Part shown: positions 49,669 to 58,733 of the stretch, in pieces | How positions within the stretch are numbered: position 1 is the first letter of the stretch | Layout: every line of letters begins with the position of its first letter | NCBI GenBank assembly: GCA_026702615.1 | Contig: JAPPBY010000004.1 | Location: 1 to 64,000, forward strand | Length of the DNA: 64,000 bases | Direction of reading: 5' to 3' | Source of the DNA: Chloroflexota bacterium | GTDB taxonomy: Bacteria; Chloroflexota; Dehalococcoidia; Tepidiformales; Tepidiformaceae | The notes under the pieces: model-generated | Database searches by the model: none | The model's input: only the letters and a program-made list of their open reading frames with translations | Told to the model about the DNA's origin: nothing | Program-made: the position numbers and the translations under genes

Positions 49669-51408
49669 TTACTCGGTGACGAACACGACCGCCAGCATGT
49701 CCGGGTGGTAGCTGCAGGTGATGCGGTACTCGCCCGGCGCATCGAAGGTGAACGTCCGCATGACGCCCACGCCCTCGAAGTCATCGCCCTGCTGCTGGCC
49801 GTCGATCTCGATGTTGTGGAGCCCCACCACGTTCTCGAACGTCACCGTTGTTCCCACGGCGACCTTCACGCCCGTCCGGTTCGGCTCGCCGGCTACGCCG
49901 TCGGCCACCACCGTCCAGTCGTTGTCGTTCGCGAGGATGAGGACGTCGGTCGAAACCGCGTTCGGCTCGTCGATGACAATCGGGTCCGCGCCGCTGATCG
50001 TGTTGAACGCGCTTGTCGAAACGGTGTGCTCGACGCAGGCCGTGCCCGGGTTGATCTCGTCCGACGGCGCCGCCCCCCACGCGTCGGCGGGGAAGTGCAG
50101 CGACTTGCCGATGGGCACCACCGCGTCCGCCGCCAGGCCGTTCGCCTCACCCAGCGAGGCCGCCGTCACGTTGCCGAAGCCCGAGGCCACCTGGGTCAGG
50201 TCGGCGCCCGCTACCACGTACGCGTTGATCGGCGGGAGCGCGATCCAGACTTCGGTCGAGACGTCTTCGCCCGCGCCCAGCTCGTTGTCCGACCGCAGCG
50301 TGCTTTCGCTCAGGCCATGGGCGCTGGCGATGGAGAGGACCGTGTCGCCGAACTGCACGATGTAGCCAGTGCCGTCGCGCAGCATGAGTTCCGTGCCCTC
50401 CGCGATGGCGGCGTCCTCGGCGAGCTCGTTGTCCTCCGCGAGTGCCAGCACGGGGATGTCGTGCGCTTCCGCGATGGAGAGGAGCGTATCGCCCGCCTGT
50501 GCGGTGTAGGACGTGCCGTCGGGCAGGAGCAGCTTGCGCTCACCCGTCAGCGGCGTGTCGTCGGCGATGTCGCCCACGATCGACAGCAGCAGCGGATTCA
50601 GCGAACGGATCTGCGACGGCGTGATGCCGTGCCGCTCTGCGATGCTCCCCAGTGTGTCTCCCGCGCTCACCCGGTAGGCCGCGCCTTCCGGCAGGCGCAG
50701 CGTTTGCCCCGGAAGCAGCCCGGTCGCGATGTTGTCCGCGGACGGGTTCAGCATCAGGGCCTCGTCGTCGCCCGAGTACGGAAGGTAGAAGTTCCCGCTC
50801 CCGTCCACCGCGTAGGTCAGCCCGTTCAGCTCGGCGATGAGGATGGCGCCCTCGACCTCGTTCGCTCCGATCCCGTGCGCCGCCGCAATCAGGGGCAGTG
50901 TGTCGCCCGTCACCGAGGCCGATGACTCGTGGTTCAGGTTGTGGGCGAACTCGACCGCCGCCAGCCAGCCGTGGTTCGTCGGATTGCCGTTTGCGTCGAA
51001 CGTCTCTCCCTCGAGCGGCGCCGTCAGCAGCCGCACGAGGTGCTCAATCTGGTTCGCCGTCAGGCTGCCGCCGTTCGAATCGAGCCAGGCCGGCATCAGT
51101 GTGCCCGCCCGCCCGCAGATCAGCGTGCGCCTGATCAGGTCCTGGTTTTGCGAGAGCGCCAGCGGTTCCTGGTTCCGGAACGCGGCCTTGTTCAGCGTCA
51201 GGCCCACGCCGCCCTCGCCCCGGATGCCGTGGCAGGTGCGGCAGTTGTTCGCGTAGAGCAACGCCCCGCGCTCGATCGACTCGGCCTCGAAGAAGTCTGC
51301 CTGCCGCTCCGCGCGGATGGGCAGGTCGATTGCCGTGTACGCGGCGCAGCCCGCCACGCTGATAAACAGCAGCACCACGATCAGGAAGATTTGGCGCTGG
51401 GTGTTCAA
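49669..51408 (-). CDS. Cytochrome c - multi-LysM - cupredoxin fusion protein
   Basis: 579 residues. Start with a lipoprotein-like signal (lipobox VAGC, C21). A class I cytochrome c domain follows with CRTCH at 56-60 and the Met ligand in TLMPAW (M105). Then four to five LysM repeats: about 245-293 (YRVSAGDTLGSIAERHG), 301-345 (YTAQAGDTLLSIAEAHD), 349-392 (YIVQFGDTVLSIASAHG), plus weak ones at about 164-209 and 397-440. The C-terminal 68 residues are a type 1 copper cupredoxin: H531, C565, H568, M571 (CxxHxxM as in amicyanin). It is the last large gene of the bc operon, so it should accept electrons from Rieske. LysM would bind peptidoglycan glycans. The domain combination is unfamiliar to me. 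Confidence 0.88.
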   Translation of the reverse strand: MNTQRQIFLIVVLLFISVAGCAAYTAIDLPIRAERQADFFEAESIERGALLYANNCRTCHGIRGEGGVGLTLNKAAFRNQEPLALSQNQDLIRRTLICGRAGTLMPAWLDSNGGSLTANQIEHLVRLLTAPLEGETFDANGNPTNHGWLAAVEFAHNLNHESSASVTGDTLPLIAAAHGIGANEVEGAILIAELNGLTYAVDGSGNFYLPYSGDDEALMLNPSADNIATGLLPGQTLRLPEGAAYRVSAGDTLGSIAERHGITPSQIRSLNPLLLSIVGDIADDTPLTGERKLLLPDGTSYTAQAGDTLLSIAEAHDIPVLALAEDNELAEDAAIAEGTELMLRDGTGYIVQFGDTVLSIASAHGLSESTLRSDNELGAGEDVSTEVWIALPPINAYVVAGADLTQVASGFGNVTAASLGEANGLAADAVVPIGKSLHFPADAWGAAPSDEINPGTACVEHTVSTSAFNTISGADPIVIDEPNAVSTDVLILANDNDWTVVADGVAGEPNRTGVKVAVGTTVTFENVVGLHNIEIDGQQQGDDFEGVGVMRTFTFDAPGEYRITCSYHPDMLAVVFVTE

Positions 51409-51426: not shown

Positions 51427-52020
51427 CTAGCCACTGTAGGGGACCGCCCGCTTCGGATTGGGAACCGCTCCGCCGCCGAGCGTCAGGCCGCGCGTGTTTA
51501 CCGTGACCGAGCCGTCGGGATTGGTCGTCAGCAGGAACGTGTCCAGCGGGCGAGGCGCCGGTCCGAAGACTCGCACGCCCGCGCGCGAGTAGGTCGAGCC
51601 GTGGCAGGGGCAGCGGAACCACCCCTGGACACCAGGGAAGGCCACTTCCGCCCCGTCGAAGTCGCCCCGCCAGGGGACGGTGCAACCGAGGTGGGGGCAC
51701 TTCCAGTAGAGCGCCAGCAGGCCCCCCGTGCCTCCCTGGTCGAGCACGTCGCCTTCGTTACCGTCCAGGTTCACCAGCCAGAACTTGCCTTCGGTGATGC
51801 GGACGGGCTCGGCGCCCGGCTCCGGGATCTGGATCTTGGGGACCGTCACCGGTCGCCCGAAGCCCTGCGGGCTGCGCAGGTTGAAGAAACCCAGGAAGAA
51901 CGCGCTGAATGCGCCCAGGGCGAGCGTTAGGCCCGCGAAGGCGCTCACCCGCATGAACGAGCGCCGCGAGACCTTGCGCGCCTCTGCCTGCCGTGCTTGC
52001 TCTACCCGTTGCGCTGCCAT
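51427..52020 (-). CDS. Rieske 2Fe-2S protein of the bc complex
   Basis: 197 residues. Twin-arginine-type start (SRRSFMRVSAFAGLTLALG) acting as membrane anchor, then the Rieske motifs CPHLGCTVPW and CPCHGSTYSR. The sequence after GPAPRPLDTF completes the fold. It takes electrons from menaquinol and passes them to the heme c/copper protein encoded next. Overlaps in a tight operon (7 bases after subunit IV). Confidence 0.94.
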   Translation of the reverse strand: MAAQRVEQARQAEARKVSRRSFMRVSAFAGLTLALGAFSAFFLGFFNLRSPQGFGRPVTVPKIQIPEPGAEPVRITEGKFWLVNLDGNEGDVLDQGGTGGLLALYWKCPHLGCTVPWRGDFDGAEVAFPGVQGWFRCPCHGSTYSRAGVRVFGPAPRPLDTFLLTTNPDGSVTVNTRGLTLGGGAVPNPKRAVPYSG

Positions 52021-52027
52021 CCGCTCG

Positions 52028-52918
52028 CTACTCCTGCCCCGGGATGCCTTCGAGCGTGCGCAGGTCCCACGGCCAGATTAGGTCCTGACCGGGCCCGCGG
52101 AAGGCTGTTCCGATAACCGTCAACATCAGGAAGACGCCCACGAACCCGCTCATCAGCGTGATCAGCGCGTCCCGGCGCGTATGCACCCAGTTGATCTTCC
52201 AGAAGAAGAAGATGAGCAGGCACGAGAACCCGACCATGAATCCCGTCGGGATGCCGATGTCCACCAGGAGCGTGGGCAGGTCGATCTTCTGGAAGGTCGT
52301 TACGCCCGCCCCCGGACCTTCGTCCAGGATCTTCAGGTTGAACCACAGGTAGGGAATCGAGTCCGCCCACCCGGGCCAGGGCACAACCGAGGGGTCCTTC
52401 AGCGCCGCCGAGCGCTCCAGGAACGCGAGCGTGCTGCCGCCGGAGAAGCCGAACCAGTCCTTGGCCCAGAGCGCCGCCTTGCCCGAGTTCCAGATGATGA
52501 GCGCCAGCGTGCCCCACAGGCCCACATTGAGTGAGACCACGGTGTTCTTCACCGAGTTTACGTCGGCGAACCAGCGCCCCTGTCCCTCGGTGGACCGGTC
52601 GAAGTACGGGAACACGATCAGGACGATCAGCCACACGGTCGGCACCACGATGCCGGCCAGCGCCGCGTTCATGTGCAGCAGTAGCTCCTGCAGGTTCAGC
52701 AGGTACCACGGCGCCTTTGCCGGGTCGTTCGTGACGTTCGCGTTCGCCTCGTCCAGGAGCGGAGCGTTCATCAGGTACGAGAGCAGGAAAAGCAGGACCG
52801 TGAACAGCATCGCCGAGATGAACTCGACGAAGACCAGATCGGGCCAGACCAGCACCTCCTCGTCGCGAGCGCGAGGAGTGGGTCGGGCGGCCGGCCGGGC
52901 GACGACGACGGTTGCCAT
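52028..52918 (-). CDS. Cytochrome b C-terminal subunit (subunit IV-like)
   Basis: 296 residues, three to four main membrane helices. The quinol-site motif normally PEWY/PDWY reads APWY in DPAKAPWYLLNLQELL. Extra C-terminal helices beyond the usual 160-residue subunit IV are present (GIPTGFMVGFSCLLIFFFW, LMSGFVGVFLMLTVIG). Together with the b6-like gene upstream it makes the quinol-oxidising cytochrome b. Split genes mark a b6f-type rather than fused bc1-type complex. Confidence 0.9.
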   Translation of the reverse strand: MATVVVARPAARPTPRARDEEVLVWPDLVFVEFISAMLFTVLLFLLSYLMNAPLLDEANANVTNDPAKAPWYLLNLQELLLHMNAALAGIVVPTVWLIVLIVFPYFDRSTEGQGRWFADVNSVKNTVVSLNVGLWGTLALIIWNSGKAALWAKDWFGFSGGSTLAFLERSAALKDPSVVPWPGWADSIPYLWFNLKILDEGPGAGVTTFQKIDLPTLLVDIGIPTGFMVGFSCLLIFFFWKINWVHTRRDALITLMSGFVGVFLMLTVIGTAFRGPGQDLIWPWDLRTLEGIPGQE

Positions 52919-52937: not shown

Positions 52938-53690
52938 CTACAGCGGCCGCGCCAGGCCGCCATCCCGGCGAATCCGCCAGAAGTGCACGGCCATGAAGAT
53001 TGCTGCCAGCAGGGGCAGGCCGATGACGTGCAGTGTGTAGAAGCGAATCAGCGCGTCCGGACCCACCTCGAAGCCGCCGAGCAGCCAGAAGCGCGTCTTC
53101 GGGCCCAGCACTGGCGCCGAGCCGGCGATGTTCGTGCCCACCGTGATTGCCCAGAAAGCCAGCTGGTCCCACGGCAGCAGGTAGCCGGTGAAGCTCAGGA
53201 GGAAGGTGAGCACCAGCAGGACTACGCCCACCACCCAGTTGAATTCCCGCGGTGGCTTGTAGGCCCCCGTGTAGAAGACCCGCAGCATGTGCAGGAACAC
53301 GAGGATCACCATCGCGTGCGCCATCCAGCGGTGCATGTTCCGCATCAGCTGCCCGAACTGCACGTTCGTCTGGATGTTCTGGATGTCCAGGTACGCCCGG
53401 TCCACGCTGGGCACGTAATAGAACATCAGCAGGATGCCCGTCACGGTCAGCCCCAGGAACATGAAGAAGGTGAGCCCGCCCAGGCAGTAGGTGTGCGTGA
53501 TCTTTACGTGCGTGCGGTGGATGCGGGTGGGATGCAGGTGGAGGAACACGTTCGTCGCGACCACCAGCATCTGGTTGCGCGGGGTGTTCGGGTAACCCGT
53601 GCGGAAGATCGACCGCCACACGTAGTTGTGGAAGAGCTTGTCGTAGATCAGGTCGCCGAGAGTCGGTTGGGTGGGCTGCTCCACGGCCAT
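52938..53690 (-). CDS. Cytochrome b6-type subunit
   Basis: 250 residues, four membrane helices. Heme b ligands are paired H120/H134 in helix II ([22 protein letters not shown]) and H221/H236 in helix IV. C69 in [11 protein letters not shown] corresponds to the b6 cysteine that binds the extra heme c(n). The [13 protein letters not shown] segment is the b6 quinol-reduction motif. It starts 3 bases after the tiny membrane gene. Confidence 0.94.
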
Positions 53691-56655: not shown

Positions 56656-56678
56656 GGGCGTGAGGGTCCGTCACGCCC
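56656..56678 (+). promoter_or_regulatory. Hairpin in the leader of the M23 peptidase gene
   Basis: A perfect 8-bp stem, gggcgtga with tcacgccc, around a 7-base loop, 25 bases before the GTG. There is no T-run. It may terminate rho transcription or control the downstream gene. Confidence 0.4.
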
Positions 56679-56702
56679 GACACCACGGAGGGACTGGAGA
56701 AC

Positions 56703-57923
56703 GTGCTGAGGGATTGGCTCCTGGACCTCCTGCATGGTCGCTCTTCTGCTCGCGCCCGCTCGCATGCCCACGGCCACCTTCCCCTTCGCACCGTCCTCCA
56801 CCTGCTTGTCATCGGCATCGCCGCCCTGGCGGCGCTCCTCGCCGTCCGGCTCGTCTCCGAGGACGAGACCGCCCAGGTCTCCAGCATTCCGCCCGCCCCC
56901 CTCTCGGGCGTGCGCGCCATTGCTCCCACGGGCGAGTCGTTCCTCCGCCCCGGCGTCAGCCACGGCACGGTCGAGTCCCCCCTCAGGGCCGCACTCGCCA
57001 CACCCCAGGTTCCCCTGCGTCCTACCGAGGACGTGGCGGAGGGAGAGACCATCTCTTATGGCGTCGGCCGCGCCACCGCCGCCGGCCAGGACGCCGGCTA
57101 CGACGTCCGGGCGCTGACCGACCAGATCGACCCCGAGGAGCCGTACGTCATCTACGAGGTTCGCGGGGGCGACACGCTCGGCGAGATCGCTGAGACCTAC
57201 AGCACCACCGTTGACAACATCCTGCTCAACAACGCCGAGGTCGTCGAAGGCGACTACATCCCCGTCGGCCAGGAGATCCTCGTCCCCCTCGGAAGCGTCC
57301 ACGGCATCCTCTACCTCGTCGGCCACGCCGAGACGCTCAGCGGCATCATCGACCGGCACCTTGATGTCACGATCCAGGACGTCCTCGATCACCGCCCCAA
57401 CAACCTCCTCAGCAGCGATGACATTAAGCCGGGCAGCTACATCCTCCTTCCCAACGCCAGGCTCAAACCGCCCCCCGTCCGCAGCCCCGATGGATGGATC
57501 ATTACCCCGCCGCCGCCGGTGTCCCCCGGCCGATTCGGCCTGCCCCTGGCGTCCTGGGACTTCGTCAGCGACCTCTTTGGGACCGACCGCGGGGGCGGCC
57601 GCATCCATACCGGGATCGACCTCGCCCTCGGGTCGCAACCGGCGTCATCCGTCTACGCCGCCTGCGACGGCTGGGTGTCACGCGTCGAGTGGCTTACCTA
57701 CAGCTACGGCTACTACGTCATCGTCGATTGCGGCGACGGCTGGACGACCCTCTACTCGCACTTCCGCGAGATCATCGTGAGGTGGGGTGATTCGGTGAGG
57801 AAAGGCGAGACCATCCTCGGCATCTCCGGCTCCACCGGCTTCAGCACCGGCGAGCACCTCCACTTCGAGATTCGCTACAACGGCCAGTACCTCGACCCCG
57901 CCGACTACCTGAACTTCTGGTAG
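56703..57923 (+). CDS. M23 metallopeptidase with LysM repeats
   Basis: 406 residues from a GTG with GGAGG upstream. A basic cytosolic start, one membrane helix (about 29-48), a linker, two LysM-like repeats (about 146-195 YVIYEVRGGDTLGEIAETYSTT and 198-250), a Pro linker, and a C-terminal M23/LytM domain with HTGID (zinc His and Asp) and GEHLHFEI (HxH). Exported peptidoglycan endopeptidase, probably involved in cell elongation or separation. Near the sortase genes. Confidence 0.92.
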   Translation: MLRDWLLDLLHGRSSARARSHAHGHLPLRTVLHLLVIGIAALAALLAVRLVSEDETAQVSSIPPAPLSGVRAIAPTGESFLRPGVSHGTVESPLRAALATPQVPLRPTEDVAEGETISYGVGRATAAGQDAGYDVRALTDQIDPEEPYVIYEVRGGDTLGEIAETYSTTVDNILLNNAEVVEGDYIPVGQEILVPLGSVHGILYLVGHAETLSGIIDRHLDVTIQDVLDHRPNNLLSSDDIKPGSYILLPNARLKPPPVRSPDGWIITPPPPVSPGRFGLPLASWDFVSDLFGTDRGGGRIHTGIDLALGSQPASSVYAACDGWVSRVEWLTYSYGYYVIVDCGDGWTTLYSHFREIIVRWGDSVRKGETILGISGSTGFSTGEHLHFEIRYNGQYLDPADYLNFW

Positions 57924-57953: not shown

Positions 57954-58733
57954 CTAGTTGCCATCCGCTATCGACTGCACGATATCTCCCGGCCTCGTCT
58001 CCACCAGCCGTGCGATTACCACGTCGCGATGCACGTAGTACCCCGACCCGTCCGGCTCCGTTGGTATGAAGTCGCCTCCGCACGTAATGAGCGTGACCCA
58101 CTCCTCGTCGGCCGGGCGCAGCAGTTCTTCGTTTTCCGCTTCGTGCGGCCAGATCAGGTCGTGCATGGGCATGTCCCCGGCCGCGTAGCGCCGCTGGAAG
58201 AACACCTCGTACACGTACTCGCGGCCGTCGTCCATCACCACGATCACGAGGTCGCCGTCTTCGAGCTCGGTGAGCGCGTAGAAAGGCCCTCGAATATTGT
58301 CCCGAGCCCAGTCCTTGTGAGCCGAGAACAGCGCGCTCGTTCCGAAGCCCGGCTTGTCGTAGATGTCGTACCAGCCGACGTTTCGGGGTCGGGGCACATC
58401 CAGCTTGTTCTGCCCCGGAATCTTCCCGATCGCCTCGATCGGCGCTTCCACTCCCAGCGAGGGGATGCGCATCAAGACCACTTCCCCGTCGTAGGGCGTT
58501 GCTTCCGCCCCCGCCGTCGGCTGTTCCGTGGGGGCTTCGGTGGGCGCCCCACTGGGCGATGCCGTTGGCGTTGCGGTCCGCGCCGCCGTGGGTGTCTCCG
58601 GCACTTGCTCCGGCTCGGCCGGCACGTCGATCGCCGCGCACCCTGCTCCTGTGAGGGCAACCACGGCTGCCAGCACCCACGCTCCCGCCGCCCGGCTCCG
58701 GCGGCCCATGGCCCGTTCCGCGAACCCCCGCAT
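57954..58733 (-). CDS. Sortase with lipoprotein-type anchor
   Basis: 259 residues. Signal with lipobox LTGAGC (C32), then a Thr/Pro-rich stalk (about 45-80), then the sortase domain. Catalytic residues: H139 in FSAHKD, C218 in VTLITCGGDF, Arg in HRDVVIARL (R242). The class is unclear, closest to D/E/F-type. Lipid anchoring plus a stalk would hold the enzyme outside the membrane, whereas most sortases use an uncleaved N-terminal helix. Tandem paralogue of the next gene. Confidence 0.87.
   Translation of the reverse strand: MRGFAERAMGRRSRAAGAWVLAAVVALTGAGCAAIDVPAEPEQVPETPTAARTATPTASPSGAPTEAPTEQPTAGAEATPYDGEVVLMRIPSLGVEAPIEAIGKIPGQNKLDVPRPRNVGWYDIYDKPGFGTSALFSAHKDWARDNIRGPFYALTELEDGDLVIVVMDDGREYVYEVFFQRRYAAGDMPMHDLIWPHEAENEELLRPADEEWVTLITCGGDFIPTEPDGSGYYVHRDVVIARLVETRPGDIVQSIADGN

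Follow-up and report, generated by a model that had tools for sequence, protein, structure and literature searches.

A heme c–LysM–cupredoxin protein of Tepidiformaceae as the probable cytochrome c subunit of a split-b bc complex

What is the role of a protein that carries a heme c motif, an array of LysM repeats and a type 1 copper site in one chain? The question is raised by positions 49669–51408 of the window, i.e. the whole 64,000-nucleotide stretch of Tepidiformaceae DNA (contig JAPPBY010000004.1) analysed here, where the minus strand holds a single open frame that translates into 579 residues. A first-pass annotation had described the product as an electron carrier that could span the wall or be fixed in it, as a sort of tethered wire from the membrane to a distal acceptor. 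The presence of CRTCH, several LysM repeats and a copper set in one protein is borne out by the translated frame, Pfam, profile comparison with the PDB and an AF2 model, which together give the following layout.

49669..51408, minus strand: heme c–LysM array–cupredoxin protein, 579 aa, with a TTG start at 51406–51408 and the stop at 49669–49671
51346..51348, minus strand: C21, in a lipobox-like V-A-G-C that ends the N-terminal hydrophobic segment (conservation)
51025..51288, minus strand: class I cytochrome c domain, residues 41–128 (profile and model)
51229..51243, minus strand: heme motif CRTCH, residues 56–60 (sequence; heme Cys and His invariant)
51115..51117, minus strand: C98, first member of a cysteine pair without a ligand role, located 7 residues ahead of M105, the presumed axial ligand
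50824..50922, minus strand: LysM repeat 1, residues 163–195 (alignment and model)
50527..50682, minus strand: LysM repeat 2, residues 243–294 (profile and model)
50383..50517, minus strand: LysM repeat 3, residues 298–342 (profile and model)
50239..50370, minus strand: LysM repeat 4, residues 347–390 (profile and model)
50095..50223, minus strand: LysM repeat 5, residues 396–438, devoid of a GDT motif (alignment and model)
50035..50037, minus strand: C458, the other member of the pair, past the LysM array and ahead of the cupredoxin (alignment)
49672..49956, minus strand: cupredoxin domain, residues 485–579 (ligand conservation, model and profile)
49816–49818, 49714–49716, 49705–49707 and 49696–49698, minus strand: copper ligands H531, C565, H568 and M571, respectively

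The TTG start is backed by the alignment, in which the homologues begin with LNTQ, VNTQ or MNTQ at the same residue. The first domain matches Cytochrome_CBB3 in a Pfam search with the 579-aa protein (E = 2.1e-7), and comparison of the AF2 model with known structures relates its fold to the cytochrome c domain of cd1; C56, C59 and H60 are invariant in the family homologues, and M105 is kept in at least 90% of them. It is followed by about five β-α-α-β LysM units (residues 163–441 of the model), for which Pfam provides strong support (PF01476, E = 4.6e-30, 103.7 bits against a gathering cut-off of 20.9, three significant stretches). The array covers about 280 residues instead of the 400 or so estimated initially, and the heme motif lies about 470 residues from H531. 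Repeat 1 is shortened in the genus of the window relative to the other Tepidiformaceae of the alignment. The Fer2_4, HTH and other weak Pfam matches within the LysM region were set aside as cross-matches to the LysM helices or noise.

The C-terminal domain is preceded by a linker (residues 459–475) with a pLDDT below 50 in the AF2 model. Whereas the LysM assignment was upheld by single-sequence Pfam, the cupredoxin assignment was not, the Copper-bind match being sub-threshold (E = 0.07); it is supported by profile comparison with the PDB (amicyanin 1sfd, 1.1e-4; plastocyanin 1bxu, 4.7e-4) and by the fold. Residues 487–578 of the model superimpose on plastocyanin 1bxu (Z 11.6, 81 residues, 1.8 Å) and adopt the Greek-key fold of type 1 cupredoxins. 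H531, C565, H568 and M571, exactly the residues named by the first-pass annotation, are invariant in 26 homologues and make up a full type 1 ligand set, with an amicyanin-like C-x2-H-x2-M ligand loop.

The gene lies directly after that of the Rieske protein, as first noted, and is the last of a same-strand operon encoding cytochrome b6, a subunit IV-like cytochrome b, the Rieske protein and the cytochrome c.

52938..53690, minus strand: cytochrome b6-like subunit (PF00033, 1.2e-48; synteny)
52028..52918, minus strand: C-terminal part of cytochrome b, subunit IV-like (PF00032 slightly below the cut-off; synteny)
51427..52020, minus strand: Rieske [2Fe-2S] subunit (PF00355; synteny)

Nearly all loci of the family and the class that were read and had enough flanking sequence show the same gene order, and the NCBIfam model bc1_QcrC_actin matches the N-terminus of the 579-aa protein (1.1e-5). 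Gene order and homology point to a c subunit of a split-b bc complex as the best reading of the protein, and not to a free soluble carrier. In bc complexes, the c subunit is described as the least conserved part (PMC3578206). C21, at the end of a conserved V-A/G-G-C-like lipobox, is nearly invariant and occurs in every family protein that has the N-terminus; outside the sister lineage, the majority of relatives without LysM lack a cysteine at this position. Since this lipobox-like cysteine is conserved and LspA is present in the genome, C21 would probably carry a lipid anchor.

Pfam detected LysM and cytochrome c domains in 26/26 Tepidiformaceae proteins scanned, including those of the cultured Tepidiforma flava (L040, complete genome) and of a member of the window's own genus (L038). 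The architecture is therefore common within one family, which is half of what the first-pass annotation had named as telling against its reading (an architecture already common and characterised); as to the other half, the open-access papers searched contain no account of a bc subunit with LysM repeats or a cupredoxin. The gene is single-copy and conserved among Tepidiformaceae, and the full-length members (526–645 aa) differ in length by whole LysM repeats. In the family alignment, mean identity is 69% for the cytochrome domain, 53% for the cupredoxin and 43% for the LysM part, and canonical GDT-type repeats persist across the LysM arrays.

We searched 294 genomes of the class with the first 133 residues of the protein and retrieved a homologue in 111, about 40 of which, from some twenty families, were read. 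On reading, none of them shows a LysM insert, and for 38 of them LysM is absent from the Pfam families listed as matched (25 of 28, the other three being minor ones). The heme c–cupredoxin or two-heme c subunits of other Chloroflexota (L096–L135, L190, L194 and L196) share the N-terminal domain with the LysM protein and, in the Dehalococcoidia loci, its operon position; all their copper types have the cysteine pair. Their spacers differ from that of the LysM protein; in the class, the spacer is a short linker, a coiled-coil-like stretch or a long β-repeat array of the type RIGxELLxVxxV...VERGxxGTxAxxHxxGT. Some also differ in their C-termini: the class homologues end in one cupredoxin, in two (L096 and L098), in another cytochrome c (L118, L126, L130, L132 and L133) or, in the case of L099, L104 and L116, without any additional redox domain. 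The long β-repeat arrays occupy the same insertion site (L107, L111, L127 and L129, the subunits reaching about 757 aa), as do shorter ones (L110, L112, L114, L122 and L123); no obvious cover for the VERGxxGTxAxxHxxGT repeat was seen among the Pfam families listed for the class homologues. In the three proteins devoid of a further redox domain, which belong to one family (f21), the cysteine pair is kept and the chain ends soon after; a separate carrier must therefore exist there. In a tree based on concatenated bc subunits, the LysM proteins form one clade, whose nearest relatives are tandem-cupredoxin lineages without LysM, which is consistent with the LysM array having been gained once. The tandem-cupredoxin bc cytochromes of these closest lineages are encoded at L096:4049–5341 and L098:3161–4423. 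More distant homologues in a sample of the phylum are two-heme or three-heme forms, or heme-copper forms without LysM.

How are the two redox domains arranged with respect to each other? Every full-length family protein contains exactly six cysteines (the N-terminally truncated L045 was left outside this count): C21, the two heme cysteines, C98, C458 and the copper ligand. The C98 and C458 equivalents have no cofactor role and bracket the insert. In 79 homologues, which are related so that the count is not a probability, both cysteines were present in 65 and neither in 14; one only was found in 0. In the family protein L044, the second cysteine was missed by one pattern scan because the copper pattern had taken it up, but it appears in the list of family cysteines. 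The pair is kept whether the tail carries copper, carries heme or is absent, and the two residues are separated by 65 (L097) to 511 residues (L107). Given this strict co-occurrence despite a variable gap, a disulfide is the simplest reading, and C98 and C458 are likely to form a bridge that closes the insert into a loop. Such a bridge would pin the segment preceding the cupredoxin to the cytochrome domain near the Met ligand, so that any insert would be a loop; the two redox domains thus probably stay in close proximity.

Apart from this protein, no cytochrome c domain of PF13442 or PF00034 was found in the genome, which is 95% complete; a scan of the DNA for CxxCH patterns was uninformative (95 matches versus 149 in the control). 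One COX1 and one COX2 were detected, corresponding to one detected heme-copper oxidase, and COX2 carries CAELCGTNHALM, a CuA-type motif, without a heme motif. In actinobacteria devoid of small c cytochromes, the diheme head of QcrC carries electrons to the CuA of the aa3 oxidase (PMC8361435). As no other class I cytochrome c was detected alongside the one CuA oxidase, the 579-aa subunit appears to be an equivalent of actinobacterial QcrC that combines heme with copper. The most economical path, we infer, would lead from the Rieske centre to the heme c of the subunit, then to its in-chain type 1 copper domain and finally to the CuA of the aa3-type oxidase, either directly or via the cupredoxin of the oxidase operon. 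The natural acceptor is the detected CuA-bearing oxidase with its own tethered cupredoxin. The latter forms the C-terminus of a 418-aa membrane protein encoded directly after COX2–COX1–COX3 (L148:8529–9785, plus strand), which is possibly the copper partner of the oxidase. Another cupredoxin, a probable lipoprotein of 129 aa with the same CDYHPQM loop, is encoded next to a catalase-peroxidase-like gene (L149:2413–2802, minus strand). This stand-alone protein could act as a mobile carrier, which counts against the in-chain relay.

As to the LysM array, MurG was found in all Tepidiformaceae genomes searched, and Tepidiforma isolates display sacculi, β-lactam sensitivity and a wall layer of about 20 nm inside a 40 nm periplasm (PMC10284905). 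As peptidoglycan is made in this family, the wall fixing suggested initially is possible. The array is an insert specific to the family, placed between heme and copper domains, and would be looped out by the C98–C458 bridge; the loop would point into the wall zone and bind peptidoglycan while the redox domains stay close. Since Tepidiforma has peptidoglycan, it is plausible that the array binds it and holds complex III to the wall. The idea that LysM is a mere consequence of having a wall was discarded: MurG is widespread in class genomes without a LysM insert, and a wall therefore does not require LysM, which also counts against the anchoring role. Note that the window also holds, at 56664–57920 (plus strand), a 419-aa frame with LysM repeats followed by what, on inspection of the sequence, resembles an M23-type peptidase domain, probably an ordinary wall hydrolase, and, at 57957–58500 (minus strand), a frame that reads like a sortase, with TLITCGGDF near its end.

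The same array could also be a passive spacer, whose repeats were duplicated in the ancestor of Tepidiformaceae without glycan binding. Conservation is lowest in the LysM region, as expected of a spacer and of a binding module alike, and family members differ there by entire repeats; in other lineages the same site is occupied by unrelated β-repeat arrays, coiled-coil-like stretches or a short linker, with 65 to 511 residues between the two cysteines. The LysM repeats are nevertheless kept in every family member scanned, their canonical GDT repeats persist and these organisms possess a wall that could be bound, so that we regard a passive spacer as a real possibility without favouring it. The extended wire fares far worse. 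With the heme at the membrane and the copper beyond the wall, feeding a distal acceptor, it would make sense of two redox centres some 470 residues apart with LysM repeats in between, and a peptidoglycan layer is indeed present. The main argument against it is the probable closure of the loop by a disulfide: LysM is one of several alternative inserts, and the co-occurring cysteines flank the insertion site. Furthermore, LysM folds are redox-inert and electrons could not hop along the array, homologue L097 keeps the same two ends with a 65-residue spacer, and the CuA oxidase detected sits in the membrane. We therefore deem a wire stretched across the wall highly improbable.

The copper domain, for its part, might be a copper store or a chaperone for oxidase assembly instead of a redox relay. 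In other bacteria, CuA assembly is served by cupredoxin-like copper carriers, and a further cupredoxin is encoded here in the oxidase operon. However, the full type 1 ligand set is invariant, and sister lineages place a second cytochrome c at this position, which is sensible only for electron transfer; a storage or chaperone role thus appears improbable. Altogether, we consider it probable that electrons leave a split-b (b6f-like) bc complex through this protein, in which a heme-to-copper relay would be combined with a disulfide-closed, peptidoglycan-binding LysM loop. The more specific proposal that Tepidiformaceae complex III is fixed to peptidoglycan through this loop and that the in-chain heme-to-copper relay replaces a mobile carrier is put forward tentatively.

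If the relay exists, a large set of aerobic Chloroflexota would do without a mobile cytochrome c, and a second carrier, often copper instead of heme, would be built into complex III. LysM repeats within complex III would offer a means of attaching respiration to the wall, which cultured Tepidiforma strains make testable, and the conserved cysteine pair constitutes a concrete structural prediction.

Among known systems, the closest sequence matches to the LysM repeats of the protein are found in wall hydrolases (DipM, LytE and Thermus NlpC/P60); unlike these, it has no hydrolase domain, and its repeats lie inside a respiratory subunit. Its copper domain has the fold and the ligand set of amicyanin and plastocyanin, with the C-x2-H-x2-M loop of amicyanin, but is fused to other domains, whereas amicyanin and plastocyanin are free single-domain carriers. 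Finally, it resembles QcrC, the diheme cytochrome cc of the bcc–aa3 supercomplex, in being a complex III c subunit with two redox centres per chain; in both cases, the organism has no further class I cytochrome c that can be recognised. QcrC contains two CxxCH motifs and the LysM protein one, so that the likeness would lie in a QcrC-like mode of working and not in membership of the QcrC family. Compared to QcrC, the LysM protein has type 1 copper as its second centre, a split cytochrome b, a LysM array, a cysteine pair and a lipobox-like N-terminus.
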